A DNA stretch of 64,000 nucleotides, from the NCBI GenBank assembly GCA_947627665.1, contig CANQWX010000001.1:1-64000 (forward strand), written 5' to 3'. Position numbers and translations under genes: made by a program. The DNA comes from an uncultured Clostridia bacterium. GTDB lineage: Bacteria > Bacillota > Clostridia > Christensenellales > Borkfalkiaceae. Positions 14,073 through 51,952 of the stretch are shown here, one piece after another (within the stretch, counting starts at the first letter, position 1; each line of letters begins with the position of its first letter). The notes under the pieces were generated by a model that saw only the letters and a list, made by a program, of their open reading frames with translations, had not been told where the DNA came from and searched no databases.

Positions 14073-15539
14073 ATGAAAAAATTGCCGTTATTCTTCAGGA
14101 CGCTGATGTGTTTGACCGTATCCGTGCTGCTGCTCTTTTCCTGCATGCTCGCCGGGTGCGACCCGCTTTTGCCCGACGAGAACGATCCCTCGCTCGAGCA
14201 GCCCGATAATCCCGACAAGGAACCGGACAAGGAACCCGAGAAACCCTTCTCGGTCGTGTACCGTTCGGGGTACAAGCCCGAAAAGTTCGGCGAAGTGACG
14301 AATGAGATCACCGAGCTTGGCGCGGGCGTGCACCTCGTTGCGAACAAGCTGAAAAAGACGAACGGGCAGGACGTCGTCGTCTATGCCGTGGAAGTCGACC
14401 TCAAAAAGGCGAACATCGTCGCGGGAACCAAGGACAACGTCGCCGAGGGATTTTCCTATACCAAGACCACGCCCTATCAAATGGCGCAGGCATGGGAGAA
14501 GGACACGGGCGGCCACGTCTATATGTCCCTCAATGCCGACTTCTTCGGCGGCTATTGCGTGAACGCCTTCGTAAAGGACGGCGTCATCGTCAAAGACAGC
14601 CACAACGACGAGGGCAAATACGACTATCGGCAAGGCGCCGATGTGCCCGCCTCCGCGCCCATGCTCTTCGGCGTGAAGGGGACGACGGCGCAGATCGCAC
14701 CCATCCGGAAATACGAGGGCGATCCCGCCTCGCCGTCGGTCAAGGAGCAGCTCGTCAAGGCGAAGCTCTCCTACAAGCTGACGGACGGAGAAAACGTGCT
14801 CGATTTCCAGGAGAACGGCAAAGTTTCGTCCGATTTCATCACCTACCGTTCGAGCGGCGGCGCCAAGCAAAAAGGCGGCTATGCCGTCAAGGTGGACAAT
14901 TCCAAGGGCATCTTCGGCCTCACCGTACTCGAAGTGACGCACGTCACGGAGGATACCCGTTTTTCGGCGGGCGACGGCTACGGGTATCTCGTCACCAAGG
15001 ACGAGGACGGGGCATACGGCAAATATCTCTCCTCCCTCAAAGCGGGGGACAAGGTAGAGCTTGCGGTCACCTCTCCCGACGGGACGTGGAACGGCTATGA
15101 AACCATTCTCGGCTGCCGCCAGGCGCTCGTTGTGGACAATAAGATCGCCGACACCGTCGAAAAAGAGAACACCAACGGCGCGCAAAGCCCCGACGTGCCC
15201 CGCTCGGCGGTCGGCATCAAGCCCAACGGCAACGTCGTCATCTTCGCGGTCGAATCGATGTATTACGGGACGACACAACCGGACAGAAAGGGCAAGCCCC
15301 CCGTAGAGGGCGATACCCACGGCATGAATTTGCCCGAACTCGCCGAATTTGCCTACTACTACGGCTGCACGCAGGCGGCGAACTTCGACGGCGGCGGCTC
15401 CACCCAGCTCGTCGTGCGCGGCGAAAAAGAGGAAACGGGCAGAGTGGTCGTCCGCTCCTCCGATACGGCAAGCACGGAACTTACCGGCACCCGCCCCGTC
15501 ATGAACGGCATTCTGGTCACTTCGAGGAAAGAGGCATGA
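14073..15539 (+). CDS. Lipoprotein, phosphodiester glycosidase (NAGPA/DUF2233-type)
   Basis: Lipobox LFSCMLAGC; LNADFFGGYCVNAFVKDG and AANFDGGGSTQLVV motifs. Confidence 0.82.
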   Translation: MKKLPLFFRTLMCLTVSVLLLFSCMLAGCDPLLPDENDPSLEQPDNPDKEPDKEPEKPFSVVYRSGYKPEKFGEVTNEITELGAGVHLVANKLKKTNGQDVVVYAVEVDLKKANIVAGTKDNVAEGFSYTKTTPYQMAQAWEKDTGGHVYMSLNADFFGGYCVNAFVKDGVIVKDSHNDEGKYDYRQGADVPASAPMLFGVKGTTAQIAPIRKYEGDPASPSVKEQLVKAKLSYKLTDGENVLDFQENGKVSSDFITYRSSGGAKQKGGYAVKVDNSKGIFGLTVLEVTHVTEDTRFSAGDGYGYLVTKDEDGAYGKYLSSLKAGDKVELAVTSPDGTWNGYETILGCRQALVVDNKIADTVEKENTNGAQSPDVPRSAVGIKPNGNVVIFAVESMYYGTTQPDRKGKPPVEGDTHGMNLPELAEFAYYYGCTQAANFDGGGSTQLVVRGEKEETGRVVVRSSDTASTELTGTRPVMNGILVTSRKEA

Positions 15540-16633
15540 ACGTATTCACTTTCGACCCGAACATGACGGGCGATCTGCCCTTCCCGACGGGTCTGAAATG
15601 GCGGAGCGCCAAGGAGCCTTGTTTCGGGCTTTACGGCACGGACGCGGGGGAGGAGGCGGGCTATTGCCGCCTCACGGCCGCCGAGCGCGACCTCATCCGT
15701 CCCTTGAACGACGGCGAGGCGTGGTTCGGCGAGCATTCCTCGGGCATCTCGGTGCGCTTCGAAACGGACAGCGCCGCGATCAGCGTGCGGGTGAAGCTCC
15801 GCGACAAGTTCAACATGACGAACATGACCCAGATCGGGCAGTGCGGCATGGACCTCTACGTCTATGACGGGCGGGCAGGGGACTTTCTCCTGCACGAAGT
15901 CGCGCGCTACGAGTTTGACGCGACGGAGTACGAGGTCCCGCTCAGCCACTTCTTGCACGCGCCGAGAACGCCGCGCAAGTACATCTTACACCTTCCCCTC
16001 TACATGGCGGTCGGATCGCTGGAGATCGGGCTGGACAGCGACGCCTTTGTCCGCCCCTTCGGCTATGAAAACAGCGTACGGGTGGGCATTTACGGCACGA
16101 GCATCGTGCACGGCTGCGCCGCTTCCCGCCCCGGGCTGGCGCCCGCCGCCGTCCTCTCCCGCGCCCTGCATGCGGAAGTGCTGAACTTCGGCTTTTCGGG
16201 CGTCGCCTTCATGGAAAGGGAGATGGGGGAAATTTTGGGGAAGCGCAGGCTCGGCTATCTCATCGTGGACGCCGAACCAAACGCGGGCGTGGACGAGCGT
16301 CTGCGCGACAACGCCGCGCCCTTCCTCGACGCCTTTTTCGCTTCCTCGCCCGACGCGAAGGTCGTGCTCTATTCCCGCGTGCCCTTCGCGCTCGACTACT
16401 ACGATGACTACCGCGCCCGCATGGCGGCGTACTACCGTACCTTCTTACGGCGGCTCGCCGCGCAATACCGCAGGGCGGGACGCGCCGTTTCCTTTGCCGA
16501 CGGCTCCAAGCTCTTCCGCGGGAACATCGGCGAATATTCCACCGACGGCATCCACCCCAACGACATCGGCATGCGCGCGCTCGCCCTTTCCTACGAGCGG
16601 GAGATCAGGCGCTTTCAAGGAGAATGGAGATGA
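15536..16633 (+). CDS. SGNH/GDSL-type hydrolase with N-terminal beta-sandwich-like region
   Basis: VGIYGTSIVHGCAASRPG block, FGFSG, C-terminal DGIHPND. Confidence 0.8.
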   Translation: MNVFTFDPNMTGDLPFPTGLKWRSAKEPCFGLYGTDAGEEAGYCRLTAAERDLIRPLNDGEAWFGEHSSGISVRFETDSAAISVRVKLRDKFNMTNMTQIGQCGMDLYVYDGRAGDFLLHEVARYEFDATEYEVPLSHFLHAPRTPRKYILHLPLYMAVGSLEIGLDSDAFVRPFGYENSVRVGIYGTSIVHGCAASRPGLAPAAVLSRALHAEVLNFGFSGVAFMEREMGEILGKRRLGYLIVDAEPNAGVDERLRDNAAPFLDAFFASSPDAKVVLYSRVPFALDYYDDYRARMAAYYRTFLRRLAAQYRRAGRAVSFADGSKLFRGNIGEYSTDGIHPNDIGMRALALSYEREIRRFQGEWR

Positions 16634-18126
16634 AGATCGTTATGCTGCCGCTCGACGAGCGGCCCTGCAACTATTACTACCCGCAGATCATGCCCAAGGC
16701 GGACTATGAGTTAAAGCTCCCGCCCAAGGAGATCATGGGGGACAAAAAGACCCCGGGAGACACCGAAAAGATCGCCGCGTGGCTGCTCGAAAACATCGGG
16801 GACGCCGACGCCTGCGTGCTCTCCCTCGACACCCTCATCTACGGCGGCATCGTGCCCTCGCGGCTGCACGAATTGCCCCTTGGGGAACTTCTCCGCCGCG
16901 CGCGCCTGGTGGAAGAACTGCGGCGGATCAATCCCCGTATGCAGTTTTATGTGTTCCAGCTCATCATGCGCTGTCCCGATTACTCCCTCTCGGACGAGGA
17001 GCCTGACTATTACGACATTTGCGGGAGGGAGATCCACCTCTTCGGCAGATATACCCACCTCGAAAAGCTCGGCAAGCTCACCGACGGGGAGCGGGAGGAC
17101 ATGGAGCGGGTCAGGGAAAAGGCAGCGCCCTATCTCGGGGACTACCTCGCCCGCCGCGACAAGAACCTCGCCGTGCTCGAACACAATTTGCAATATATCC
17201 GCGACGGCGTCGTGGACTACTTCATCGTCCCGCAGGACGACGCGGCGGTGTACGGCTTTACCGCCATGGACCAGATCCGCATCCGCGCCTTTCTGAAGGA
17301 GAATTCCCTCCACCTCAAGACCGCCATGTATCCCTCGGCGGACGACACGGGGCTTATCCTCCTCGGCAGGGCGGTCGCCCGCCTGAAGGGCGTTTCTCCC
17401 AAGATTTTCGTGCACTTTGCAAGCACCAAGGCGGAGGGGGTCGTCCCGTGGTTCGAGGACAGGGCCATCGGCGAAACGGTCAAATATCATATCCTCGCGG
17501 TGGGCGGCGTGCAGGTGTATTCCCTGCCCGAGGCGGACATCGCGCTCTGTATCAACATGGGTTCCTGCATGTATCACGACACCGACCCCGCCTATGTGCA
17601 GGCCTACGACATCGACCGCAATCTCGGCGAATTCGTCCGTTTCATCGGGTACGCCCTCGGCTGCGGCAAGATCGTGGCGGTGGGGGACGTCGCCGCCTGC
17701 AACGGCAGCGACCTCGAACTTTTGCGCCTGCTTGGAAGCGAGGGGCTTCTTTTGAAGCTCCACGCCTACGCGGGCTGGAACACTTCGAGCAACACCATCG
17801 GCACCGCGGTGTGCCAGAGCGTGCTCTATCTGCTCGGCGGGGACGACGAGGGACGCATTTCCTTCCTGCTCCACCGCTACTATGAGGACGCGGCGTACAT
17901 GGGCTTTGTGCGGCAGGACGTCACCGCGCGCCTCCTCCCCGCGATGGGGCTGGATTATTTCCACGCGGACGGCGAAGAGGGAAAAGTCGCCGCCGCCGTA
18001 CGGGAGGGGATCGTGCGCTACATGCGGGAAAATTTCCCCGCGCTCGCCGCGGAGGTCAAGGACGTACACATCCGCATGCCGTGGCGCAGAATGTTTGAAA
18101 CGGAGGTAAAACTCGAACGCAAATGA
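16624..18126 (+). CDS. DUF4127 family protein, copy 1
   Basis: MLPLDERPCNYYYPQIMPKADY...SLDTLIYGGIVPSRLH...AYAGWNTSSNTIG. Confidence 0.85.
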   Translation: MEMKIVMLPLDERPCNYYYPQIMPKADYELKLPPKEIMGDKKTPGDTEKIAAWLLENIGDADACVLSLDTLIYGGIVPSRLHELPLGELLRRARLVEELRRINPRMQFYVFQLIMRCPDYSLSDEEPDYYDICGREIHLFGRYTHLEKLGKLTDGEREDMERVREKAAPYLGDYLARRDKNLAVLEHNLQYIRDGVVDYFIVPQDDAAVYGFTAMDQIRIRAFLKENSLHLKTAMYPSADDTGLILLGRAVARLKGVSPKIFVHFASTKAEGVVPWFEDRAIGETVKYHILAVGGVQVYSLPEADIALCINMGSCMYHDTDPAYVQAYDIDRNLGEFVRFIGYALGCGKIVAVGDVAACNGSDLELLRLLGSEGLLLKLHAYAGWNTSSNTIGTAVCQSVLYLLGGDDEGRISFLLHRYYEDAAYMGFVRQDVTARLLPAMGLDYFHADGEEGKVAAAVREGIVRYMRENFPALAAEVKDVHIRMPWRRMFETEVKLERK

Positions 18127-18959
18127 AACTCGGCGTAGACATCGGCGGCACCACGGTCAAGGGGGCGCTGCTCGACGGTTTGCACTTTCTCCGCGAGCGG
18201 GAGGCGCCCACCCGCGGCAGGGAGGGGAGAGAAGCGATCCTGACCTCCCTCTTTTCCGTTCTGGACGCACTTCTGGAAGGGGGGGAGAAGGTCGAAAAGA
18301 TCGGCGTTTCCTCTGCGGGAAATATCGACCCGTATCGCGGGATCTGCGTGTATGCGACCGATAATCTCCGCGGCTGGACGGGCATGGACATCAAGGGCGT
18401 GCTCGAGAGCCGCTACCGCGTCCCCGTGCAGGCGGACAACGACGCGGTGTGCGCCCTCAAGGGGGAACTTCTCTTCTGCCCCGGAAAGCGGAACGTCACC
18501 ATGCTCACCTTCGGTACGGGGGTGGGCGGCGCGAGCCTCGTGGACGGGGAGATCGTGCGCGGCGCCTGTTTCGACGGCGCGCGCTGGGGGCACGTCACCC
18601 TCGTCGAAGGCGGGCGGCAGTGCTCGTGCGGGAAGCGCGGCTGCGCGGAGAGCTATCTCTCGGCGACGGCGCTCCTTGCCCGCGGCAGGGAAACGATCCC
18701 CGCGCTGAAAAGCGCCAAACAGCTCTTCGGGCTGTATGCGGAGGGGAATGCCGCCGCAGGGGAAGTCCTGCGCGAATTCGGCGTCTATCTCAACCGCCTG
18801 CTCGATATCATCCGCGCGGAAGTGCGCCCCGAATGTATCCTGCTCGGCGGCGGCATGGCGCAGTCGGAGGAGATCATTTTATCGCTCATCGAAAAGAAAA
18901 CGGACATCGCCTTTGCCCGCCTGAAAAACCGCGCGGGCATCGTGGGCGCCTGTCTTTGA
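18123..18959 (+). CDS. ROK family sugar kinase
   Basis: LGVDIGGTTVKGALL...DNDAVCALKGE...TFGTGVGGA...CSCGKRGCAE zinc motif. Confidence 0.9.
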   Translation: MKLGVDIGGTTVKGALLDGLHFLREREAPTRGREGREAILTSLFSVLDALLEGGEKVEKIGVSSAGNIDPYRGICVYATDNLRGWTGMDIKGVLESRYRVPVQADNDAVCALKGELLFCPGKRNVTMLTFGTGVGGASLVDGEIVRGACFDGARWGHVTLVEGGRQCSCGKRGCAESYLSATALLARGRETIPALKSAKQLFGLYAEGNAAAGEVLREFGVYLNRLLDIIRAEVRPECILLGGGMAQSEEIILSLIEKKTDIAFARLKNRAGIVGACL

Positions 18960-18968
18960 GGAGAAACT

Positions 18969-20819
18969 ATGAAATTCAACATTCTTTCCGCGGACCTGAA
19001 AAGGGCGGCGGCGGAGCTTGCCCCCTGCGGGATCGAGCTTGGCGGGGAGGTCCCCGTCGAATGCAGGGAGGGAGCCTTCCAGATCGAATATAACGGCGGA
19101 CGGGTCGTGATCTCCGTGGAGAAGCGGGTGGAATTTTTCTACGCGCTCAAGCTGCTCTCGGACGAGGGCCTGCCGCGGGAGGGCGCGCCGATCGTCCCGA
19201 AGAGCAATTTTGGCGACCTCACCTACATGCTCGACTGTTCCCGCAACGCCGTGCCCCAAATGGATACCTTGAAGGAGCTGATCCGCCATCTTGCGGTGCT
19301 CGGCTACACCAGCCTCGGGCTGTACATGGAGGACACCTTCGCCGTGGAGGGATATCCCTACTTCGGCTATCTGCGCACCCCCTTCACGGGGGAGGAGATC
19401 CGCGAGGCGGACAAATATTGCAAGCAGTTCGGCATCGAGCTTGTGCCCTATATCCAGACGCTCGCCCATTTCAACACCCTCACCCGCCACTACGCGATGG
19501 GGCACCTGTTCGACACGGGGGACATCCTGCTTGCGGGCGACGGGGAAGTGTACCGCTTTCTCGAGGCGCTCATTTCGGCGTGCGCGCGGTATTTCAGCTC
19601 CCGCAACATCAACATCGGCATGGACGAGGCGTACATGCTCGGACGGGGACGCTATCTCGACCTTCACGGCTGCCGCTCCCGCTTTGAGATCATGGCGGAG
19701 CACCTGAAACGGGTGGTGGAGATCTGCCGCAAATACGGGTTCGAAGCGCCCATGATGTGGTCGGATATGTTCTTCTCGCAGGCGATGAGCGCGCAGTACG
19801 GCGGCGACCTGCCCGCAAATGTCGCTGAGAGCCTGCCCGGAAATGTCGAGCTGATCTATTGGGACTACTGCTCCACCGACGAAAAGCATTACAGCGAAAT
19901 GATGAAGAAGCACCGCGTGTTCCGCAACCCCGTCGGCTTTGCGGGGGGCGCGTGGAAGTGGCTGGGCTTTACGCCCGACAACCGCTATTCCCTCGCCGCC
20001 TCCGCCGCGGCGGTGCGCGCCTGCGTCAAAAACAAGATCGGCCGCTTCGTCGTCACGGGCTGGGGGGACAACGGCGCCGAATGCTCGGTGTTTTCCAGCC
20101 TTCCCGCCATCTTCTATTGCTCCCGCGCGCGCTACGGGAAATTCGCGGTGAACGCCGCCTGCAAGCGCAGCTTCCGCAACCTCACGGGGGTGCGGTTCGA
20201 GGACTTCATGGCCCTCGACCTCTGCAACCGCGTCACGCGGAACGACGACGTGGAGGAGAAGAACAGCGCGAACAAGTACCTTCTCTTCAACGACGTGCTG
20301 CTCGGCACGCTCGACACCACGGTATGGGAGGGCGTGGGGGAATTGTACGAAGAGCACGCCCGCACGCTGCGCGCCGCCGAAAAGAGGGCGGGCAGATGGC
20401 AATATCTCTTTGAAACGCAGTACCGTCTGGCGCGTACCCTTGCCCTCAAAGCGGACATGGGGATAAGGCTGCGCAAAGCCTATCAGGCGGGCGACCGCGA
20501 ACGGCTTGCGCGCTGCCGGATGGAGCTGAAAGAGCTTCTCAAACGCGTCGCTGCCCTCTACGGCGCCTTCTCCGCCCAGTGGGAGAGGGAGAACCGCGCC
20601 AACGGGTTCGACGTGCAGGACATCCGCTTCGGCGCGCTCGAACGGCGCGTCCAAACCGCGCTCCGCAAGCTCGGCGCCTACCTGACGGACGGCACGCCCG
20701 TCCCCGAGCTGGGCGAAAAGCTGCTCGACTTCATGGGGCACGGTAACGATTTCGAGATCGACCCCGACCAGTGCGAATGGCGCTGGCGGCGCATGACTTC
20801 GGTCAATGTCAACGAATAA
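18969..20819 (+). CDS. Glycoside hydrolase family 20-like (beta-N-acetylhexosaminidase)
   Basis: MLDCSRNAVPQMDTLKELIRHLAVLGYTSLGLYMEDTF...NINIGMDEAYMLGRG. Confidence 0.78.
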   Translation: MKFNILSADLKRAAAELAPCGIELGGEVPVECREGAFQIEYNGGRVVISVEKRVEFFYALKLLSDEGLPREGAPIVPKSNFGDLTYMLDCSRNAVPQMDTLKELIRHLAVLGYTSLGLYMEDTFAVEGYPYFGYLRTPFTGEEIREADKYCKQFGIELVPYIQTLAHFNTLTRHYAMGHLFDTGDILLAGDGEVYRFLEALISACARYFSSRNINIGMDEAYMLGRGRYLDLHGCRSRFEIMAEHLKRVVEICRKYGFEAPMMWSDMFFSQAMSAQYGGDLPANVAESLPGNVELIYWDYCSTDEKHYSEMMKKHRVFRNPVGFAGGAWKWLGFTPDNRYSLAASAAAVRACVKNKIGRFVVTGWGDNGAECSVFSSLPAIFYCSRARYGKFAVNAACKRSFRNLTGVRFEDFMALDLCNRVTRNDDVEEKNSANKYLLFNDVLLGTLDTTVWEGVGELYEEHARTLRAAEKRAGRWQYLFETQYRLARTLALKADMGIRLRKAYQAGDRERLARCRMELKELLKRVAALYGAFSAQWERENRANGFDVQDIRFGALERRVQTALRKLGAYLTDGTPVPELGEKLLDFMGHGNDFEIDPDQCEWRWRRMTSVNVNE

Positions 20820-20829
20820 AGGAGAAAAT

Positions 20830-22815
20830 ATGAAATACCGTTTCGGACATCCCTTTCCCACGGATGCGGTCATCCGCAAAGTAGCCCTCTCGTCGGGCGC
20901 GCCCGCGCACTTTTCCCTCTCGCGGGAGGGGGAGCTTGTCACCCTCTCCTATCCGCTTGCGGAAGAGGACGCCGTCTACGGATTGGGCGAACAGATGCGC
21001 GGGATCAACAAGCGGGGCTGGCACTACGAGAGCTGGAACCTCGACGATCCCATCCACCACGAGGGCAGGACGAGCCTCTACGGCGCCCATAACTTCTTCC
21101 TCGTCTGGGGGAAGGAATGCTTCGGCGCCTTCCTCGATTGCGCGGGCAGGGTGGAGTACGACGTCGGCTTTACCGACCGCAACCTCTTTACTGTCAAGGC
21201 GAAAGATTTCGACCTCTATCTCTTCGAGGGGGACAGCCCGTCCGCCATCGTCAGAGAGTTCCGCGCCCTCATCGGCAGGAGCTACATCCCCCCCAAGTGG
21301 GCGTTCGGTTTTGCGCAGTCCCGCTGGGGGTACAAGAACGAGGCGGACATCCGCGAGGTGTACGAAGAATACCGAAAGGCGGGGCTTCCGCTCGATATGC
21401 TCTTCCTCGACATCGACTACATGGAGCGCTTCAAGGACTTCACGGTGGACAAGACCCGCTTCCCCGACCTCAAGGCCTTTGCCGCGGAGATGAAGCAAAA
21501 GAACATCCACCTCGTGCCCATCATCGACGCGGCGGTCAAGGTAGAAGAGGGGTACCCCGTGTACGACGAGGGGATCCAAAAGGGGTATTTTTGCAAGGAC
21601 GCGTCGGGCAGCCCCTTCGTCGTGGGCGTGTGGCCGGGCAACAGCGTTTTGCCCGATATGCTCAACCCCGCGGCGCGCAAGTGGTTCGGCTCCCGCTATC
21701 GGGTCCTGCTCGACATGGGCATCGAGGGCTTCTGGAACGACATGAACGAGCCTGTCCTCTTCTATTCGCAGGAGCGGCTCCAAGACGCCCTTCGGATCGC
21801 CTCGGAAACGAAGGAGATCACCTGCCTTGCCGACTACGAGCGGGTGAGCCATACCTTCTTCGGCCTGCAAAACAACGACGGGGATTACCGCGCCTTCTAC
21901 CACGAAACGGAGAACGGGCGCGTCGTGCACGAAGCGGTGCACAACCTCTACGGCTACAACATGACGCGCGCCGCGGCGGAGTACTTTGCGGAGTACGCGC
22001 CCGGCAAGCGCTTTCTCCTTTTCTCCCGCTCCTCCTGCGTCGGTATGCACCGCTACGGCGGGATCTGGACGGGGGACAACAGCGCATGGTGGTCCCACCT
22101 TCTGCTCAACCTGCAACAGCTCCCCGGGCTGAACATGTGCGGCTTCCTGTTCGCGGGCGCCGATTTAGGCGGATTCGGCGGGAGCACGACGGAGGAACTG
22201 CTCCTCCGCTGGCTTGCGCTCGGCGTGTTCGTGCCCCTCATGCGCAACCATTCCAACCTCGGTTCCCGTCCGCAGGAGTGCTACCGCTTTACGAGGACGG
22301 ACGTATTCCGCAACCTTCTCGGCATACGGTATTCGCTCTTGCCCTATCTGTACAGTGAATTCGTGCGCTGCGCGTTCGAAAACGACATGCTCTTCCGGCC
22401 GCTCGCCTTCGCCTATCCCGACGACGTGCGCGCAAGGACGGTGGAGGACCAGCTCCTCGTGGGCGGCAGCCTCATGATCGCCCCCGTCTATACCCAGAAC
22501 GCCAAGGGCAGATACGTCTACCTGCCCGAACGGATGAAACTCATCCGCATGAAGGCGGGCGACCGCTTCACCGAACAGACGCTCGAAAAGGGGGAATATT
22601 ATATCCCCGTTTCCACGGAGGAAGTGGTGTTCTTTTTGCGCTGCGGCAAGGTCCTGCCCCTCGCAAGACCCGCCCTGAACACCGCCTCGCTCGACGACAA
22701 AAACCTGACATGGGTGAAGTTTATCGAAAGACCCACGGCGTTCACGCTCGTCCGCGACGGCGGGACGTCGCAGATACGGAAGGAGGACTTCGAAACCGTT
22801 CTCGTGGAGCCATGA
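20830..22815 (+). CDS. Glycoside hydrolase family 31, copy 1
   Basis: WAFGFAQSRWGYKNEADIREV...GIEGFWNDMNEPVLF...GADLGGFGG. Confidence 0.9.
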   Translation: MKYRFGHPFPTDAVIRKVALSSGAPAHFSLSREGELVTLSYPLAEEDAVYGLGEQMRGINKRGWHYESWNLDDPIHHEGRTSLYGAHNFFLVWGKECFGAFLDCAGRVEYDVGFTDRNLFTVKAKDFDLYLFEGDSPSAIVREFRALIGRSYIPPKWAFGFAQSRWGYKNEADIREVYEEYRKAGLPLDMLFLDIDYMERFKDFTVDKTRFPDLKAFAAEMKQKNIHLVPIIDAAVKVEEGYPVYDEGIQKGYFCKDASGSPFVVGVWPGNSVLPDMLNPAARKWFGSRYRVLLDMGIEGFWNDMNEPVLFYSQERLQDALRIASETKEITCLADYERVSHTFFGLQNNDGDYRAFYHETENGRVVHEAVHNLYGYNMTRAAAEYFAEYAPGKRFLLFSRSSCVGMHRYGGIWTGDNSAWWSHLLLNLQQLPGLNMCGFLFAGADLGGFGGSTTEELLLRWLALGVFVPLMRNHSNLGSRPQECYRFTRTDVFRNLLGIRYSLLPYLYSEFVRCAFENDMLFRPLAFAYPDDVRARTVEDQLLVGGSLMIAPVYTQNAKGRYVYLPERMKLIRMKAGDRFTEQTLEKGEYYIPVSTEEVVFFLRCGKVLPLARPALNTASLDDKNLTWVKFIERPTAFTLVRDGGTSQIRKEDFETVLVEP

Positions 22816-22816
22816 C

Positions 22817-24646: not shown

Positions 24647-24798
24647 TGCCGCGCGCCCTGCCGGGTTTGCTTTCGGCAGGGCGCGCGGCGCACGGGAGCG
24701 ATGGGGCCGTTTTGACGCAAAATACAAAAAAATTTTTTTCAAAAGAGCATTATTTTCATAAATTTAATGAATTTCTGTCAAAAATCAAGAAAAAAATA

Positions 24799-24847
24799 AA
24801 AATTTTTTTCAAAACCTATTGACAAAGCGTCATTCTGATAGTACAAT
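24799..24847 (+). promoter_or_regulatory. UP-element-like tract plus promoter TTGACA-17-TACAAT
   Basis: AAAATTTTTTTCAAAACC identical to 13984-14001; TTGACA 24819, TACAAT 24842. Confidence 0.75.
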
Positions 24848-41652: not shown

Positions 41653-43619
41653 GAAAACTTTGTATCCTCCTTGCGGGCGTCCTGCTGCTCGGCGCGGCAG
41701 GTGCGTTCGCGGGGTGTAACAACACGCCCGAAGAGGACGAAAAAGAGGAGCAGAGCGGGCTGTTTCCCGCCGCAGGCAGCGAACAGGTCACGGACCGCGC
41801 CTCTCTGGAATACGCCTACGGCGTCTACGGGGAGGGCGCGCTCGCGGACGAGGCAAACGGCTTTACGGACGTAACTTCGCTCACGGGCGGCAGGTTCATG
41901 GTCAACGGCAGCTACCGCACGGGGCTTGGGGAGAGCGGCAACCGCAACGACATCCGCGCCGAACTGTACAACGGCAGGGCGATCCGCTGCGTGGACCTCC
42001 CCGAGGGCTATGCGTTTACCCTGCCCGCCCCTTCGGCGGAAGTGGACTATTCGATCTCGCAGTACCGCACGCAGTACACCTACGGCGACGCCGTGCTCAC
42101 GGCGACCTTCGAGAGCAAGAATCCCTACACCGCCGACGAGGACCCGTGGTATCTCTTCGCCGAGAGCTGGCTGCTCAAATATCTCAACAGCGAGCTGTTC
42201 GGCCTGCTTGGGATCACCGCGCTCCGCGAGCCTGCGCACGCGTTCACACGGACGGAACCGTACGGCGATCTCGGCATTTTGGAGGGGTACGACGTCTACC
42301 GCTACGACCTCAAGATCGAGGACGGGGGGGAAGAGATCGCGCGTCCCTTCTACCACATCGCCGTCATCCGCGCCGAAAACGCCGTCAAGGAGTTCGCGCT
42401 CTTCGTCTTAAAAGCGGAAAGCGACCGCTCCGCCGACATGGACGCGATCGTGCAAAGTTATGTCCGCCTCCCCGTCAAGGGAGTGAAGCGGACGACGACG
42501 GTGTACGAAGCGCCGCCCGAAAATCCGCGCTGGAACGCTGCCACCAAGGCGTACTACGAGAGCTTCATCTCCTCCGACCGCGTGAAGTGGGGGGTGTTCA
42601 GCGCCTCCATGCCGGGGTACCGCGACGAGTACCTGCCCACGGACAACAACTATAAATATGTGCTCGACCTGAGCCGCCGCCACCAAAGTTATCTCGAAGA
42701 AGCGTGGGATTTCAAGTACGACATCTATCCCACCTATACGGCGCTCCAATACGCGGGCGAACGGGTGCGCTTCCCCGTCTACATGGCGGAGGAGCTTGCG
42801 GGCGGCGACGGCACGAACGGAAAGCCCGTGTTGCAGTTCACCTATCAGTTCACGGCGAACAACAACCTCATGGGCACCACCCCGATGTTCGACATCCTGC
42901 GCGGCAAGTACGACGGACAGTTCCGCGAACTTGCGCAGGACATCAAGAACTATCAAAAGCCCGTCCTCTTCCGCCTCAACAACGAGATGAACACCGACTG
43001 GACGAGCTACTGCGGTCTTATCACCCTGCTCGATCCCGACATCTTCGTGATGACGTGGAAGCGGCTGTACGGCATCTTCGAGGAGGTGGGCGTCGACAAC
43101 TCCATCTGGATCTGGAACCCCAATTCCAACTCCATGCCCTACGGCTGCTGGGGAGAGGACCTGTGCTACTTCCCCGGGCGGGAATATGTGCAGCTGCTCG
43201 GCGGCACCTATTACGAGCTGAACAACTACACCAAGGAAGCTGCGCCGAAGAGCTGCCAATCGTTCAAGAAGATGTACACGGAGCTGTACCGCAAGAACGC
43301 CGCTTTCCGCGAATGGAGCGTCATCCTCTCGGAGTTCGGCTGCGGCTCGGGCGGCGACTACTCGGGCGAGCTTGGCAGAAACCGCGACGTGCAGCTCAAG
43401 TGGGTGCGGGAAATGTTCGAGGAGTTCAACGATCCCGATCCCGCCGACTATATCAAGCAGATCAAGGGCGCGGTCTGGTTCAACGCCAACGACTATAACT
43501 ACGACAACGGCACAAAGGTCACCAACCGCTATCAGCTCTACGATCCCAATAACAACTATTACAGCGATCTTCTCCCGCTCATGGAGGAGTTCCGGCGCGG
43601 GCTTTCGGGCAGAGAGTGA
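41649..43619 (+). CDS. GH26-like lipoprotein, copy 2 (tandem paralogue)
   Basis: Lipobox GAFAGC; same FRLNNEMNTDW and LSEFGCGSGG motifs; shared N-terminal region with copy 1. Confidence 0.6.
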   Translation: MRKLCILLAGVLLLGAAGAFAGCNNTPEEDEKEEQSGLFPAAGSEQVTDRASLEYAYGVYGEGALADEANGFTDVTSLTGGRFMVNGSYRTGLGESGNRNDIRAELYNGRAIRCVDLPEGYAFTLPAPSAEVDYSISQYRTQYTYGDAVLTATFESKNPYTADEDPWYLFAESWLLKYLNSELFGLLGITALREPAHAFTRTEPYGDLGILEGYDVYRYDLKIEDGGEEIARPFYHIAVIRAENAVKEFALFVLKAESDRSADMDAIVQSYVRLPVKGVKRTTTVYEAPPENPRWNAATKAYYESFISSDRVKWGVFSASMPGYRDEYLPTDNNYKYVLDLSRRHQSYLEEAWDFKYDIYPTYTALQYAGERVRFPVYMAEELAGGDGTNGKPVLQFTYQFTANNNLMGTTPMFDILRGKYDGQFRELAQDIKNYQKPVLFRLNNEMNTDWTSYCGLITLLDPDIFVMTWKRLYGIFEEVGVDNSIWIWNPNSNSMPYGCWGEDLCYFPGREYVQLLGGTYYELNNYTKEAAPKSCQSFKKMYTELYRKNAAFREWSVILSEFGCGSGGDYSGELGRNRDVQLKWVREMFEEFNDPDPADYIKQIKGAVWFNANDYNYDNGTKVTNRYQLYDPNNNYYSDLLPLMEEFRRGLSGRE

Positions 43620-43650
43620 CGCGCACGATCAGAAGGAAAGGTGGTTTGCC

Positions 43651-44352
43651 ATGAAAAACGTCATTCCGAAGGGTTTGGTCGTATCCTGCCAGGCGCTCAA
43701 AGACGAGCCGCTCTACGGCGGGAACACGATCCCCAAAATGGCGCTTGCCGCCAAGCAGGGAGGGGCGGTCGGGATCCGCGCCAATACTGTGCGGGACATC
43801 AACGCCATTTACCGCATCACGGGAGGGGAACTTCCCATCATCGGGCTGATCAAGCGGGAGTATCCCGGCTCTCCCGTCTACATCACGCCCACGCGCAAGG
43901 AGGTCAAGGCGCTCATCGCCTCCTCCTGCCACGTCATCGCGCTGGATGCGACGCTGCGTCCCCGTCCCAAGGGAGCTACCTTCGAAGAGCTTGTCGCCTA
44001 TATCCGCGACAATTCGGACAAGGCGGTCATGGCGGACTGCGCGACCGATGAGGACGCCCTTGCCGCCGACGCGCTCGGCGTGGACTACATCTCCACGACC
44101 ATGCGCAGCTATACCGCCGACACGGCGGGCTTTACGATCCCCGATCCCGGTTTCTGCGCGCGGCTTCTGCGCAATGTAAAGAACGCCACCGTCGTCGCCG
44201 AGGGAGGCATCAACTCCTTTGCGGCGCTGCGCAGCGTGCTCGATTCGGGCGTCGAACATGTCATCATCGGCGCGGCGATCACCCGTCCGCAGGTCATCAC
44301 CCGCGAATTCGTCAACGTGCTCGAGGGACATCCTAATTTTGCGGGGGAATAA
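43651..44352 (+). CDS. nanE: N-acetylmannosamine-6-phosphate 2-epimerase
   Basis: GLVVSCQALKDEPLYG...GAVGIRANTVRDI...PIIGLIKREYPGSPVYITPT...VVAEGGI. Confidence 0.95.
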   Translation: MKNVIPKGLVVSCQALKDEPLYGGNTIPKMALAAKQGGAVGIRANTVRDINAIYRITGGELPIIGLIKREYPGSPVYITPTRKEVKALIASSCHVIALDATLRPRPKGATFEELVAYIRDNSDKAVMADCATDEDALAADALGVDYISTTMRSYTADTAGFTIPDPGFCARLLRNVKNATVVAEGGINSFAALRSVLDSGVEHVIIGAAITRPQVITREFVNVLEGHPNFAGE

Positions 44353-44353
44353 C

Positions 44354-45604
44354 ATGAAATTTACGGTTGCGATCCTCGGCTGCGGGAACCGCGGTGCGGA
44401 AACGTACGGCGTGCTCTTGCAGGAGAGGGAGGAATTTACGATCGCGGCGCTCTGCGACCGCGACCGCGGGCGGCTGGAACACTACGGCAAGCAATTTTCG
44501 GTGCCCGCGGAGGCGTGCTTTGCGGACGAAGAGCAATTCTTCGCGGCGCGGCGCGCCGATCTTCTCGTCATCGCCACGATGGACGCCGACCATGTCCGCC
44601 AAGGCGTGAAGGCGCTCTCGCTCGGCTACGATCTGCTGCTCGAAAAACCCGTTTCGGACCGCCGTGAAGAGCTGGAAGCGCTGCTGGCGGCACAGAAGCG
44701 GTACGGCGGCAAGGTCGTCGTGTGCCACGTCCTCCGCTATGCGCCCGCTTTCGTCAAGGCGGCGCAGCTGCTCAAAGAGGGGCGGATCGGCAGGCTCGTC
44801 GCCATACAGGCGCTCGAACAGGTGGCATATTGGCATCAGGCGCACAGCTATGTCCGCGGGAATTGGCGCTCGCGGGCGGAAACGGCGCCCATGATCCTCG
44901 CCAAGTGCTGCCACGACCTCGACCTTCTGCAATACTATGCCGGTTCGCGCGCCGAGAGCGTTTCCTCGGTGGGGGACCTCGTCTGGTTCAAACCCGAGAA
45001 CGCCCCCGGGGGCGCCGCCGCGCGCTGCACCGATTGCAAATATATCGAAACCTGTCCCTATAGCGCCAAGCGCATCTATGTGGACGCATGGAAGCGGAAC
45101 GGGCGGTTCCCCGCCGTCTGGCCGCAGATCCAGATCACGTCCGATTATCCGCTCACCGAAGAAAAGCTGCTGCGGGCGATCCGCGAGGGCGCCTACGGCA
45201 GATGTGTGTATCATTGCGACAACGACGTCGTCGACCACCAGCTCACCGAGATCGCCTTTGAAAACGGCGTCAAAGCGACGCTCACCATGACGGCGTTTAC
45301 GGCGGGTACGGGCAGGATCATGCGCTTCTTCGGCACGATGGGGGAGATCGTCCTCGACGAAGAGGAGGACGTCGTTTCCCTGCGGCCGTTCGGCAGAGAG
45401 CGGGAGGACTTCCGCATCTCCGCGCTCGCCGCGATCGACAGCGGGCACGGCGGGGGAGACCGCGCGCTCGTGGAAACGCTCTACGGCGTGCTCTGCGGGC
45501 GAGAGGGAGAAACTTCGCTCGAGCGCTCGGTGGAGAGCCATCTCATGGCGATCTGCGCCGAGGAGTCCCGCCTCAAGGGCGGCGCGCTCGTCCGCGTTCA
45601 CTGA
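44354..45604 (+). CDS. Gfo/Idh/MocA family oxidoreductase
   Basis: N-terminal Rossmann ILGCGNRGAETYG, LLEKPVSD; internal CTDCKYIETC cluster. Confidence 0.9.
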   Translation: MKFTVAILGCGNRGAETYGVLLQEREEFTIAALCDRDRGRLEHYGKQFSVPAEACFADEEQFFAARRADLLVIATMDADHVRQGVKALSLGYDLLLEKPVSDRREELEALLAAQKRYGGKVVVCHVLRYAPAFVKAAQLLKEGRIGRLVAIQALEQVAYWHQAHSYVRGNWRSRAETAPMILAKCCHDLDLLQYYAGSRAESVSSVGDLVWFKPENAPGGAAARCTDCKYIETCPYSAKRIYVDAWKRNGRFPAVWPQIQITSDYPLTEEKLLRAIREGAYGRCVYHCDNDVVDHQLTEIAFENGVKATLTMTAFTAGTGRIMRFFGTMGEIVLDEEEDVVSLRPFGREREDFRISALAAIDSGHGGGDRALVETLYGVLCGREGETSLERSVESHLMAICAEESRLKGGALVRVH

Positions 45605-45693
45605 AAACCGTACACCCGAAGGGCGCCTTCGGGTGATGTTTTATGCCGTGCCGCCCTGCGGTGCGGCGCAATAACCGAATGGGGGAGAAAAAT

Positions 45694-47052: not shown

Positions 47053-47064
47053 AAGGAGAAACTT

Positions 47065-47787
47065 ATGAAGGTCATCATCACCAAGGACTATGAGGAAATG
47101 AGCGCGAAGGCATTCGAGCTGATGAAGCAGGTCGTCACCGAAAATCCCTCCGCCGTGCTGGGGCTTGCCACGGGCAGCACGCCGCTCGGGCTGTACGAAA
47201 GAATGGCGGAGGACCACAAAAAGAACGGCACGTCCTACAAACAGGTCAAGACGGTCAATCTCGACGAGTACGAGGGGCTGGATATTTCGAGCGACCAGAG
47301 CTACGTCTATTTCATGCGCGAAAATCTCTTCCGCCATCTCGACATCCGTCCCGCGAACACCAACATCGAGAACGGGAAGGCGCAGGACCCCGAGGCGGAA
47401 TGCGCCCGCTACAACGCCCTTCTCGAGAGCATGCGGCAGGATATCCAGGTGCTCGGCATCGGCTCCAACGGGCATATCGCCTTCAACGAACCGGGCACGC
47501 CCTTCGACGCGGAGACACACGTCGTCGACCTCACCGAGAGCACGATACGGGACAACTCCCGCCTCTTCGCGCGCATCGAGGACGTCCCCCGCCGCGCCTT
47601 TACGATGGGGCCGAAAAATATCATGAACGCGCGCAGGATCCTCATCCTCGCCAGCGGCGCGAACAAGGCGAAGGCGGTCTTGGGGCTTGTCAAGGGCGAG
47701 GTCACCGAACAGCTGCCCGCCAGCGTGCTGCAACGCCACCCCGACTGCACCCTCGTGTGCGACGAAGCCGCGGCTTCCCTTCTCTGA
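47065..47787 (+). CDS. nagB: Glucosamine-6-phosphate deaminase
   Basis: LGLATGSTPLGLYERM...VNLDEYEGL...GIGSNGHIAFNEPGTPF. Confidence 0.97.
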   Translation: MKVIITKDYEEMSAKAFELMKQVVTENPSAVLGLATGSTPLGLYERMAEDHKKNGTSYKQVKTVNLDEYEGLDISSDQSYVYFMRENLFRHLDIRPANTNIENGKAQDPEAECARYNALLESMRQDIQVLGIGSNGHIAFNEPGTPFDAETHVVDLTESTIRDNSRLFARIEDVPRRAFTMGPKNIMNARRILILASGANKAKAVLGLVKGEVTEQLPASVLQRHPDCTLVCDEAAASLL

Positions 47788-47791
47788 GAAT

Positions 47792-48946
47792 ATGAAATAT
47801 TTTGAAAATGTCCCCGTCTATCTCCACGGGACGGGGATCGTAAAGAGCAGCGTGCGTTTCGGCGAAAGGATCGTTTCCTTCTCGGAAGGGGAGGAAAAGA
47901 TCGCCCTGCCCGAGGGAGCGGTCGTGCTCCCCGGATTTGTCGACGAACACATCCACGGCGCGGGCGGCGCAGACGCCATGGACGGCACCGCGGCGGCGCT
48001 CACGACCATCTCGCAGACGCTCGTCAGGGAGGGGACCACCTCCTTCCTTGCGACCACCATGACCCAATCGCCCCAGAATATCGTGCGGGCGCTTACGGCC
48101 GTACGGGAAAAATGCGCGGCGGATAGCAAAAAAGACCGCCCGACGGGCGCCCGTCTTTTGGGCGCGCACCTCGAAGGGCCGTTCATCTCGGCGGCGCACA
48201 AGGGGGCGCAGCCGCTCGGATACGTCGCCGCGCCCTCCATCGAAACGTTTGAAGCATATCAGGCCGCGAGCGGCGGGAACATCCGCATCGTCACCCTTGC
48301 GCCCGAGGAAGCGGGGGCGGAGGCGCTCATATCCCGCCTCACCGCGTCGGGCGTGGTGGTTTCCCTCGGACATACGGGCGCGAAATACGCGGACGTCGCG
48401 CGGGCGGTTTCCCTCGGCGCGCGGCACGTCACCCACACCTACAACGCGCAGTCGCCCCTCCACCACCGCGAGATCGGCACCGTGGGCAGCGCCCTCCTCA
48501 TGGACGAACTTGACTGCGAACTCATCGCCGATACCATCCACGTCAGCGAGCCAGCCATACGGCTGCTCGTAAAATGCAAGACGCCCGCCCGCATCCTTCT
48601 CATCACCGACGCCATCCGCGCAAAGGGGCTTGGGGACGGGGAGAGCGAACTCGGCGGGCAAAAGGTGTACGTCAAGGGCGGCGAGGCAAGGCTCGAAGAC
48701 GGCACCCTCGCGGGCAGCGTGCTCCAAATGAACCGCGCCGTGCAGAACATGGTGGAAAAGGCGGGGCTGTCCCTGCCCGAGGCGGTGGACTGCGCCTCGC
48801 TCTTGCCCGCAAAGGCGCTCGGCCTTTCGGGAGAGCTTGGCAGCGTCGCCCCCGGCAAGCGGGCGGACTTCACCGTTTTAAGTCCCGCGTTCGACGTCCT
48901 CATGACGGTCGTCGGCGGCGAGATCGTCTACCGTCATGCGTTATAA
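47792..48946 (+). CDS. nagA: N-acetylglucosamine-6-phosphate deacetylase
   Basis: PGFVDEHIHGAGGADAMDG...GAHLEGPFIS...GHTGAKYADV...THTYNAQSPLHHRE. Confidence 0.97.
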   Translation: MKYFENVPVYLHGTGIVKSSVRFGERIVSFSEGEEKIALPEGAVVLPGFVDEHIHGAGGADAMDGTAAALTTISQTLVREGTTSFLATTMTQSPQNIVRALTAVREKCAADSKKDRPTGARLLGAHLEGPFISAAHKGAQPLGYVAAPSIETFEAYQAASGGNIRIVTLAPEEAGAEALISRLTASGVVVSLGHTGAKYADVARAVSLGARHVTHTYNAQSPLHHREIGTVGSALLMDELDCELIADTIHVSEPAIRLLVKCKTPARILLITDAIRAKGLGDGESELGGQKVYVKGGEARLEDGTLAGSVLQMNRAVQNMVEKAGLSLPEAVDCASLLPAKALGLSGELGSVAPGKRADFTVLSPAFDVLMTVVGGEIVYRHAL

Positions 48947-49778
48947 GCTCGAAAACGACGCCATGAGCGTCATGATCGACGCGCTCGGCGCGGAACCTGT
49001 CAGCCTGGTATTCCGCGGCAGAGAGCGGCTCTGGCAGAACGCAAACGGCAGCTGGGCGGGACATGCGCCCGTCCTCTTTCCCGTCTGCGGGAATTGCGCG
49101 GTGGACGTCGGCGGCGTGCATTACCGCCTGCCCCGCCACGGATTTGCCCGCAGAATGAACTTTGCGCTCAAAGCGCAGACGGAGCGTTGCCTCTCGCTCG
49201 TGCTGCACTCGGACGGGGAAACGCTGCGGCAATTCCCGTTCGCGTTCGTCCTTACCGTGACTTACCGCTTGGAGGGGGACAGCCTGCTCATCGGCTACGA
49301 GGCGGAAAACCCCGCGGAGGAGCCGCTGTACTTTTCGTGGGGCGGGCACCTTTCGCACGCGCTCTTTGCCCCGTTTTCGCGGCACGTCCTGCGTTTTGCG
49401 GAGCGGGAGGAGCTGATCGCCGCGCTGCACGACGGCGAGGGCAGGCTCACGGGCGAAAGAAAACTGCTCGGCACGGGGCGGGAACTTCCGCTCTCTCAGG
49501 AGGCGCTCAACGGCAACACCCTCATTTTCAAGCCAAGATCGCGCGAGGTCACCCTCTGCGAGGGGGAAAAGCCGCTCGCAAAGGTCGGATTCGCGGACTT
49601 TGACTACCTGCTTTTATGGCGGCCCGCGGGGGCGGACATGCTCTGCGTCGAACCGTGGGGCAACCTGCCCGACCGCGCGGGGGAGTTCCTTCCCTTCCCG
49701 CAGAAGAGGGGGGTGCGCGTCCTGGCGGGCGGGGAAAGCGTTTCCGCGCTGCAAAAAATCACCTATTACGAGGTCTGA
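48936..49778 (+). CDS. Aldose 1-epimerase family protein
   Basis: GAEPVSLVFRGRERLWQ...APVLFPVCGN; RLPRHGFARRM. Confidence 0.88.
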   Translation: MRYKLENDAMSVMIDALGAEPVSLVFRGRERLWQNANGSWAGHAPVLFPVCGNCAVDVGGVHYRLPRHGFARRMNFALKAQTERCLSLVLHSDGETLRQFPFAFVLTVTYRLEGDSLLIGYEAENPAEEPLYFSWGGHLSHALFAPFSRHVLRFAEREELIAALHDGEGRLTGERKLLGTGRELPLSQEALNGNTLIFKPRSREVTLCEGEKPLAKVGFADFDYLLLWRPAGADMLCVEPWGNLPDRAGEFLPFPQKRGVRVLAGGESVSALQKITYYEV

Positions 49779-49780
49779 AT

Positions 49781-51952
49781 ATGATCACCTACGACCCGAA
49801 AACACGCACCTTTTTCCTGCACGGGAGGTCCTTTTCCTGCGCGCTTTGGGTGCATCCCGCGGGGTATCTCGTCGGCCTGCACTTCGGCGGAAGCGCGGGG
49901 GAGGACGATCTCGGCTATCTCGACCCCTCGCCGCGGGAGCTGAGCTTTTCGCCCATTCCGCCCGATGTGGAAAATTATTTTTCGCTCGACGTCGCGGGCA
50001 GCGAATACGGCAGCTTCGGGCAGGGGGATTTCCGCACGCCCTCCGTGCTGATCGCGCGGGAGGACGGCATGCGGGCGAGCAGGTTCCTCTACCGCTCGCA
50101 TGAAATTTACGACGGCGCGCCCGACCTGGGGGCTTTGCCTGCCGCGCGCGGCGGAAAGACCCTTTCGATCGTTCTCGGGGATGCCCTGTCCGCCGCCGAG
50201 ATCCGCCTGAATTACATCCTGTATGAAGACTTAGACGTTCTGGTGCGCAATGCGGAGATCGTCAACCGCGGCAATTCGCCCATGTTCCTCTTGCGCGCCT
50301 ATTCCTTCTGCCTCGACCTCGCGGCGGGGGAGTACGACGTGCTGCGCCTGCACGGGCGGCACAACATGGAGCGCACGCCCGAGCGCACGCCGTTGGGACA
50401 CGGCAGCGTGAAGATCGGCTCGCCGCGCGGCGCCTCTTCCCATCAGATGAATCCCTTCCTCGCCCTTTTAGAGCGGGAAACGGGGGAGGACCGCGGCGTC
50501 TGTATCGGCTTCGAGCTATTGTACAGCGGCTCGTGGACGCTCGAGGCGGAACAGTCGCAGATAGGCTCCGTCCGCGTGAGCGGCGGGATCGGCGACCTGA
50601 ACTTCTGCTGGGAACTCAAAGCGGGCGAAAAATTCGTGACGCCCGAGGTCGCCATCTGCTATTCGGAGGAGGGGCTTGGGGGGATGTCGCGCGGCTTTGC
50701 GGACTTTTTGCGCGGACACGTCCTGCCCGAAAAAGAGGTGTTTAAGCCCCGCCCCGTGCTCATCAACAACTGGGAGGCGACTTACTTTGATTTCGACCGT
50801 GAAAAGCTCTGCGCGATCGCGGACGCGGCCGCGCCGCTCGGCATCGATACCTTCGTCCTCGACGACGGCTGGTTCGGCGCACGGAACGACGATCATACCT
50901 CGCTCGGCGATTGGTCCGTCAATGAGAAAAAACTTGCCGGCGGGCTTGCCCCCGTCATCGAACATTGCAAGAAGCGCGGCTTAAAGTTCGGGCTTTGGTT
51001 CGAACCCGAGATGATCTCCGAGGACAGCGCGCTCTACCGCGCCCACCCCGATTGGGCGGTCGGGCGGGCGGACGCGCCCCGCTGCAAGAGCCGCCACCAA
51101 TATGTGCTCGACATGACCCGCCAAGAGGTGACCGACTATCTCTTCGCGCGGATGAGCGATATTTTGGGGGGATACGAGATCTCCTATGTCAAGTGGGACA
51201 TGAACCGCCACATCAGCGAGTTCTATTCCGCCGCGCTCCCCGCAGAGCGGCAGGGGGAATTTGCCCACCGCTACATTTTGGGCGTTTACGGCCTGATCAG
51301 AAGGTTGCAGGCGGCGTTCCCGTCCGTCTTTTTCGAGGGCTGCTCGGGGGGCGGCGGACGGTTCGACGGGGGCATGCTCGCCTTCTTCCCGCAGTTCTGG
51401 ACGAGCGACGACACCGACGCCTACGAGCGCGCCAAGATCCAGTGGGGCACCTCCTACGGCTATCCGCTCTCCGCCATGAGCTGCCACGTTTCCTCCTGTC
51501 CCAACCACCAGACGGGCAGAACGGTCCCCTTCGCCTCGCGCGGGGCGATTGCCTCTCTCGGCGCCACGGGCTACGAGCTTGATTTGGGGCGTCTGAGCGC
51601 GGAGGAAAGGACGCAGGTCAAGGAGCAGATCGCAAATTACCGCGCGATCGAACCGCTCATCCTGCGCGGCGATCTGTACCGCATTTCCGACCCGTACCGC
51701 GAAAACCGCTTCTGCGTTGCCGTCGTGAGCAAGGACAAGACCCGCGCCTATGTCGTGGGCATGTGCGTCCATGCCGTGGCGGGCGATTTCGACAGGCGGA
51801 TCCGCCTCAAAGGGCTATGCGCCCAAAAGCATTACAGGGTGGAGGAGTCGGGGCTTACCCTCCGCGGCGACACCCTGATGAACGTCGGGCTGCTCCTGCC
51901 GCGCCTTCCCGATTTCGGGAGCTGGGTCTGGCATCTGCAAGAAACATCTTGA
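49781..51952 (+). CDS. Alpha-galactosidase, GH36
   Basis: FVLDDGWFGARNDDHTSLGDW...LKFGLWFEPEMIS...YVKWDMNRHISEFYS...FEGCSGGGGRFD. Confidence 0.94.
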   Translation: MITYDPKTRTFFLHGRSFSCALWVHPAGYLVGLHFGGSAGEDDLGYLDPSPRELSFSPIPPDVENYFSLDVAGSEYGSFGQGDFRTPSVLIAREDGMRASRFLYRSHEIYDGAPDLGALPAARGGKTLSIVLGDALSAAEIRLNYILYEDLDVLVRNAEIVNRGNSPMFLLRAYSFCLDLAAGEYDVLRLHGRHNMERTPERTPLGHGSVKIGSPRGASSHQMNPFLALLERETGEDRGVCIGFELLYSGSWTLEAEQSQIGSVRVSGGIGDLNFCWELKAGEKFVTPEVAICYSEEGLGGMSRGFADFLRGHVLPEKEVFKPRPVLINNWEATYFDFDREKLCAIADAAAPLGIDTFVLDDGWFGARNDDHTSLGDWSVNEKKLAGGLAPVIEHCKKRGLKFGLWFEPEMISEDSALYRAHPDWAVGRADAPRCKSRHQYVLDMTRQEVTDYLFARMSDILGGYEISYVKWDMNRHISEFYSAALPAERQGEFAHRYILGVYGLIRRLQAAFPSVFFEGCSGGGGRFDGGMLAFFPQFWTSDDTDAYERAKIQWGTSYGYPLSAMSCHVSSCPNHQTGRTVPFASRGAIASLGATGYELDLGRLSAEERTQVKEQIANYRAIEPLILRGDLYRISDPYRENRFCVAVVSKDKTRAYVVGMCVHAVAGDFDRRIRLKGLCAQKHYRVEESGLTLRGDTLMNVGLLLPRLPDFGSWVWHLQETS

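Follow-up and report, generated by a model that had tools for sequence, protein, structure and literature searches.

A NanE-DUF4127 gene cluster of a gut Clostridia bacterium as a candidate locus for the utilization of foreign ManNAc-containing surface glycopolymers

Which polymer is degraded by the enzymes encoded at positions 14073-51952 of an uncultured Clostridia genome, and what supplies the N-acetylmannosamine (ManNAc) handled by their epimerase NanE? The window, that is the whole stretch of 64,000 nucleotides analyzed here (contig CANQWX010000001.1; G000:C1:1-64000 in our numbering), belongs to a metagenome-assembled genome (MAG) of 1.81 Mb in 46 contigs. An earlier interpretation made from the letters alone (hereafter the sequence-only reading) proposed a system for harvesting wall teichoic acid (WTA). 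The explanation that we favor, giving it an even chance of being right, is a Gram-positive polysaccharide-utilization locus (PUL) for surface glycopolymers of other bacteria that contain ManNAc and probably carry phosphodiesters, whether a secondary wall polymer, WTA or a capsule. The more novel element, as compared with the teichoic-acid proposal, is the pairing of NanE with DUF4127 proteins: of 49 genomes of the genus, an identical set of 12 has both and the other 37 have neither (Fisher 1e-11, a statistic that ignores kinship).

The near-continuous plus-strand run described from sequence, 38 kb long, is real: 25 plus-strand open reading frames (ORFs), none broken by a stop, take up 97% of positions 14073-51952. 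The GC content of these ORFs, 0.78-0.87 at third versus 0.36-0.49 at second codon positions, indicates real coding sequence. Comparisons with Pfam, NCBIfam and PDB recover, in the order given, all the families listed by the sequence-only reading and add two DUF4127 proteins, a Gfo/Idh/MocA oxidoreductase, an acyltransferase-like protein, an aldose epimerase and a lipoprotein of 1498 residues. Three of its labels hold in part. Of the two ROK proteins, the one at 18123-18959 passes the Pfam cut-off and the other is at best a divergent ROK-like kinase; of the two GH26-like lipoproteins, only B passes the Pfam GH26 cut-off, A being known as its paralogue; and the transporter comprises two permeases, with a solute-binding protein (SBP) below threshold and no ABC ATPase found by a domain search of the cluster proteins. 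The genes, with window positions, strand, product and best evidence, are as follows:

14073-15539, +, NAGPA (phosphodiester glycosidase) lipoprotein; PF09992 76 bits (cut-off 25)
15536-16633, +, SGNH/GxDLY esterase, no signal peptide seen; PF14606 94 bits, PF14607 86 bits
16630-18126, +, DUF4127 protein A, probably cytoplasmic; PF13552 466 bits
18123-18959, +, ROK sugar kinase, candidate NanK or GlcNAc kinase; PF00480 143 bits, NanK match below cut-off
18969-20819, +, GH20C beta-N-acetylhexosaminidase, probably cytoplasmic; S. pneumoniae GH20C (5a6b), E 2e-120
20830-22815, +, GH31 alpha-glucosidase, probably cytoplasmic; 3n04, E 4e-233
22817-23596, +, acyltransferase-like protein (NAT_N/GNAT_C); Pfam domains, kept in most relatives
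23749-24579, +, RpiR-family regulator; PF01418 72 bits, SIS 67 bits
24901-29397, +, 1498-residue lipoprotein, candidate glycan-binding or surface protein; no Pfam/NCBIfam match
29658-31586, +, ABC solute-binding lipoprotein (SBP); PF13416 23 bits (cut-off 27), lipobox in the sequence
31631-32674, +, ABC permease A; PF00528 44 bits
32688-33650, +, ABC permease B; PF00528 40 bits
33654-35162, +, DUF4127 protein B, probably cytoplasmic; PF13552 486 bits, AlphaFold2 pLDDT 93.7
35164-37122, +, GH31 glycosidase related to cycloalternan/isomaltosyl enzymes; 5i0d E 8e-118, 5f7s E 5e-91
37119-37727, +, Big_2-domain lipoprotein; PF02368 50 bits
37738-39519, +, exported GDPD-family phosphodiesterase; PF03009 55 bits (cut-off 23.6)
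39544-41652, +, GH26-like lipoprotein A; 47% identical to lipoprotein B
41649-43619, +, GH26-like lipoprotein B; PF02156 36.7 bits, best solved relative endoglucanase H
43651-44352, +, NanE, ManNAc-6-phosphate 2-epimerase; PF04131 182 bits, NF002231 259 bits (cut-off 189)
44354-45604, +, Gfo/Idh/MocA oxidoreductase; PF01408 57 bits
45694-47052, +, possible divergent ROK-like kinase; TIGR00744 23 bits only, no Pfam match
47065-47787, +, NagB; PF01182 78 bits
47792-48946, +, NagA; TIGR00221 342 bits (cut-off 226)
48936-49778, +, aldose epimerase-like protein; PF01263 63 bits
49781-51952, +, GH36, alpha-galactosidase type; PF02065 473-474 bits

Does ManNAc reach this pathway from sialic acid, from the cell's own wall or from elsewhere? 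No NanA above cut-off is found in the genome, the best match being DapA-like (118 bits against a cut-off of 382, with an E. coli-like model of limited sensitivity), and a search at E 1e-3 of the DUF4127 loci surveyed gave no NanA/DapA-type ORF. The sialic-acid route is thus rejected, and the ManNAc or ManNAc-6-phosphate most likely has another origin. In a phylum sample of 300 genomes, the two with a strong NanA possess NanE and lack DUF4127. The 89% complete MAG also returned no UDP-GlcNAc 2-epimerase (PF02350), no TagA/WecG (PF03808), which a search of 29 other genomes of the genus found in one, and no LCP ligase (PF03816). NanE is therefore catabolic and its ManNAc most likely comes from outside; the recycling of the cell's own wall teichoic acid, one of two options left by the sequence-only reading, is effectively excluded, and the other, scavenging from other bacteria, is favored. 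Natural candidates for the source are the beta-ManNAc-(1-4)-alpha-GlcNAc-1-phosphate linkage units, phosphodiester-anchored, of Gram-positive wall polymers (PMC7831098) and the secondary cell wall polymer of Paenibacillus, made of ManNAc-GlcNAc repeats (PMC11464976).

Gene order in the block is preserved in eight other species of the genus, which makes it more than a chance assembly; in two of them, among which G034, it is divided between two contigs. The near relatives are uncultured Clostridia MAGs, mostly from rabbit ('Lapin'); Candidatus Scatosoma and a chicken MAG are more distant. In the synteny map, NAGPA, SGNH, both DUF4127, ROK, SBP, the permeases, GH20C, the GH26-like proteins and NanE are found again in every stretch that the contigs cover. 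Of the 49 same-genus genomes, 10 have a NAGPA orthologue (E < 1e-100), each of them together with DUF4127, and the remaining two DUF4127 genomes, G004 and G015, hold a divergent NAGPA (86 bits with Pfam in G004) in a shorter locus. NAGPA thus accompanies DUF4127 in 12 of 12 genomes, and the two share a neighborhood wherever the assembly covers it and no rearrangement has occurred. The locus of G004 and G015 is of a different type that keeps NAGPA-DUF4127-NanE-RpiR; ROK and importer genes are seen in G004, where GH38 and GHL10 take the place of the glycosidases of the window. Within the genus, the accessory glycosidases vary, and NAGPA, DUF4127, NanE, RpiR and the importer are constant. In one species (L044, L063), the native site contains only GNAT-RpiR-DUF4127b-ROK-NagB-NagA-epimerase, and NAGPA-SGNH-DUF4127a-ROK-GH20C-GH31 lies on another contig.

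How deep does the pairing go? A DUF4127 scan with one genome per species gave 79 loci, 35 of them non-gut. NanE is present in 32 of these 35, and in 29 loci it lies within 300 bp of DUF4127. The genes of Paenibacillus, Neobacillus and their allies usually follow the order SBP-permease-permease-(GH84)-DUF4127-NanE-RpiR-ROK-FAD oxidoreductase, some loci lacking members, and Acholeplasma arranges the same families differently. The deepest conserved core, common to Paenibacillus, Neobacillus and Acholeplasma, is an ABC importer, DUF4127, NanE, RpiR and a ROK kinase; at this depth the conserved companion of NanE is DUF4127 rather than NAGPA or GDPD. In the phylum sample, DUF4127 passes its cut-off in 47 genomes (~16%) and NanE matches strongly (E < 1e-20) in 33; the two coincide in 20 genomes against 5.2 expected, and lie within 10 kb in 8 of the 20. 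The FAD-dependent oxidoreductase (PF12831; L083-L118, e.g. L090:14078-15664), found in 26 of the 35 non-gut loci, possibly performs a redox step in amino-sugar catabolism; a search for informative solved or curated relatives returned none. Five Paenibacillus loci (L109, L086, L095, L107, L112) combine NanE-DUF4127 with a Gfo/Idh/MocA dehydrogenase, L109 also with an IolE-like TIM-barrel protein, an arrangement reminiscent of 3-keto-glycoside pathways. Acholeplasma granularum (L104:6478-16197) carries DUF4127, the FAD oxidoreductase, NanE, a solute-binding protein and an Ig-domain surface protein; as it is a wall-less mollicute, the substrate of its locus should be foreign.

In DUF4127 itself, an alignment of 39 sequences shows an invariant set of acidic and basic residues (D10-E11-R12, R115, E124-E125, Q204-D205-D206, D240, E278-D279-R280, D356 and W386-N387), and the confident AlphaFold2 model of protein B (pTM 0.93) alternates strands and helices. 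Its weak Foldseek matches are mostly TIM barrels, topped by an O-GlcNAc hydrolase, a xylose isomerase and a GH18 chitinase. Our inference is an enzyme with a TIM-barrel-like fold that belongs to a family not described before. Kinship with GH84, suggested by the invariant DD at a strand end and by these weak hits, found no support in a profile-profile comparison (hhalign probability 0.4%). Because NanE is its partner, our best guess for its role is a hydrolase releasing ManNAc-type residues. The fuller proposal is tentative and less likely than not: a new TIM-barrel-like family of glycan hydrolases, its cytoplasmic PLDERPCN clade being an N-acetylmannosaminidase, and the locus the pathway by which a gut bacterium with no ManNAc wall polymer of its own feeds on those of others. 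Searches of one literature library found no paper mentioning DUF4127 and none on N-acetylmannosaminidase activity. Many DUF4127 copies outside sugar operons begin with a signal peptide-like start, and some exported paralogues adjoin LCP (2), MltG, D,D-carboxypeptidase (DacA) or SLH genes (L155, L160, L156, L159, L174, L177; raw neighbor counts), which are cell-wall functions.

The two phosphodiester-cleaving families put forward by the sequence-only reading are borne out by intact catalytic motifs, which make both enzymes likely to be active. For NAGPA, domain score, fold and motifs are all present: NADFF (154-158), P376-R377-x-A379-x-G381 and DGGGS (439-443) are invariant across orthologues, the sequence profile reaches vertebrate NAGPA, and a structure search with the AlphaFold2 model returned 3ohg (TMt 0.75) and vertebrate NAGPA structures at a match probability of 1.00. 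Loss of the locus in relatives or of catalytic residues had been named as grounds for abandoning the proposal; for NAGPA, both are retained. In GDPD, 16 aligned homologues share H253-R-G, E262, E280xD282, H295 and E354xK356, and the profile reaches many solved GDPDs. A literature search returned nothing useful on bacterial NAGPA or on WTA/ManNAc recycling. In the GH26-like proteins, the acid/base and nucleophile glutamates, E489 (NEMN) and E601 in lipoprotein A, are invariant in 17 sequences.

A signal peptide or lipobox is visible in NAGPA, the 1498-residue protein, the SBP, the Big_2 protein, GDPD and both GH26-like proteins; none is visible in the GH31 proteins (Pfam scores 371 and 156 bits), GH20C, GH36, SGNH, both DUF4127 and the remaining enzymes, which would be cytosolic. 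The 1498-residue lipoprotein is conserved in position, yet shares 26-51% identity with its counterparts in relatives, far more divergent than its neighbors. A BspA-type leucine-rich-repeat protein (52973-53998) follows directly downstream of the cluster, and some relatives have weakly similar repeat proteins close to the locus.

Are the two halves of the cluster controlled together? An AT-rich, operator-like 16-mer, AAAATTTTTTTCAAAA, occurs in three exact copies:

13984-13999, +, AAAATTTTTTTCAAAA, upstream of NAGPA
24729-24744, +, AAAATTTTTTTCAAAA, upstream of the 1498-residue lipoprotein
24799-24814, +, AAAATTTTTTTCAAAA, upstream of the 1498-residue lipoprotein

These are the only copies in the window, against 0 in whole-window shuffles, which underrate AT-rich intergenic stretches. 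Variants stand upstream of the 1498-residue gene in 8/8 mapped relatives and of NAGPA in 7/8, and head the locus pieces in G034. A looser dyad pattern also matched inside coding sequence, so the case for an operator is built on the 16-mer itself, kept at corresponding places across relatives. We regard it as a candidate operator for RpiR, and the halves of the cluster are probably co-regulated.

Put together as a PUL for foreign ManNAc-containing polymers, the system would work as follows. Outside the cell, NAGPA would cut sugar-1-phosphodiesters, GDPD, where present, other phosphodiesters, and the two GH26-like lipoproteins the polymer chain; the ABC importer would take up the oligosaccharides. 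In the cytosol, the SGNH esterase would strip acyl groups, GH31, GH36 and GH20C would take off alpha-Glc, alpha-Gal and beta-N-acetylhexosamine (HexNAc), and the two DUF4127 enzymes would probably free ManNAc-type residues. ROK kinases would phosphorylate ManNAc and GlcNAc, NanE would produce GlcNAc-6-phosphate, and NagA with NagB would yield fructose-6-phosphate, RpiR controlling both gene blocks.

Several observations weigh against this explanation. The incompleteness of the MAG weakens the gene absences. The co-occurrence across relatives expected by the sequence-only reading, found for NAGPA, NanE and DUF4127, fails for GDPD, which is missing, together with the Big_2 lipoprotein, from G016 and G044 (2/9 surveyed loci), so that the substrate need not contain glycerol-phosphate. 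NAGPA is found in 0/35 and GDPD in 2/35 of the non-gut DUF4127 loci, which together with the GDPD gaps places phosphodiester cleavage outside the deep core. DUF4127 is not specific to ManNAc pathways, since 27 of its 47 phylum genomes lack a strong NanE, and its model finds no good match among solved structures (best TM about 0.2). Finally, the GH26-like proteins, GH36 and SGNH could also serve an acetylated mannan.

The last point leads to an unlikely alternative, a dietary or host glycan locus in which GH26, GH36 and SGNH would attack acetylated galacto(gluco)mannan, or an N-glycan or mucin would be the target, the amino-sugar genes serving HexNAc decorations. GH26, GH36 and an esterase form a typical mannan set, and the herbivore-gut setting, with close relatives among rabbit-gut MAGs, suits such a diet. 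However, a domain search of the cluster gave no GH130, GH113, GH3, GH5, GH92 or GH125 and neither a sialidase nor a fucosidase, GH26-like A (39544-41652) is below Pfam detection, and mannan or mucin leaves NAGPA and the strict tracking of NanE with DUF4127 unexplained.

We hold equally improbable the narrow proposal of a classical poly(glycerol/ribitol-phosphate) WTA, with NAGPA cutting the GlcNAc-1-phosphate linkage, GDPD the polyol chain, and NanE handling the ManNAc of the linkage unit. The joint presence of NAGPA and GDPD with intact motifs fits it, GH31 would suit an alpha-Glc decoration, and the linkage unit does hold beta-ManNAc-GlcNAc-1-phosphate (PMC7831098). Yet G016, G044 and 33 of the 35 non-gut loci do without GDPD, the GH26-like enzymes would have no role, and a single ManNAc per chain poorly justifies so large a locus. 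Set against two DUF4127, two GH26-like proteins and three alpha-glycosidases, it suggests instead a substrate with a ManNAc-bearing repeat. The sequence-only reading was thus right to flag phosphodiester chemistry and too specific in naming WTA, as repeating-ManNAc wall or capsule polymers fit equally.

Still less probable is a poly(hexosamine-1-phosphate) capsule-type polymer whose ManNAc-alpha-1-P-6-ManNAc bonds NAGPA would cut, directly freeing the NanE substrate ManNAc-6-phosphate, which would account for NAGPA, NanE and an esterase without NanA and recalls the use of UDP-ManNAc for capsules by some bacteria (PMC11464976), but requires a ManNAc-6-phosphate importer where this one looks oligosaccharide-type, and leaves GH20C, GH31 and GH36 unexplained.

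Wall glycopolymers can make up as much as half of the dry weight of the Gram-positive wall (PMC7831098), so their turnover in the gut, few enzymes of which are known, could be a large flow of carbon and phosphate. The pairing with NanE gives DUF4127 a testable function, and NanE alone must not be taken as a sign of sialic-acid use.

How does the cluster compare with known systems? In the teichoic-acid turnover of B. subtilis by GlpQ/PhoD (PMC11488536), a GDPD-type TIM-barrel phosphodiesterase is likewise among the enzymes; that system, however, salvages the cell's own wall, whereas here the genes for the wall-polymer ligase and for ManNAc biosynthesis are missing. The cluster has the traits by which PULs are recognized, namely a co-localized importer, surface and cytosolic CAZymes, a regulator and conservation across species. 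With Gram-positive PULs it shares an SBP, two permeases, the lack of a local ATPase, lipoprotein endo-enzymes, cytosolic glycoside hydrolases and an RpiR regulator, and differs from them by two phosphodiester-cleaving families, two DUF4127 copies and an amino-sugar end-pathway with NanE. The locus thus adds to a known kind, the Gram-positive PUL, with the unstudied DUF4127 at its center. The nan operons of the Ruminococcus gnavus type, with NanE/NanK/RpiR and Gfo/Idh/MocA, resemble it in NanE, ROK, RpiR, ABC importer, SGNH esterase and oxidoreductase; here, in contrast, the genome is without NanA above cut-off, no sialidase domain was found in the cluster, and DUF4127 stands beside NanE instead. 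The Paenibacillus/Neobacillus operon departs from the cluster in that NAGPA and GH26-like proteins were not detected and a PF12831 FAD oxidoreductase, sometimes GH84, is present, but it has the same heart: DUF4127 adjoining NanE, accompanied by an ABC importer, RpiR and ROK.

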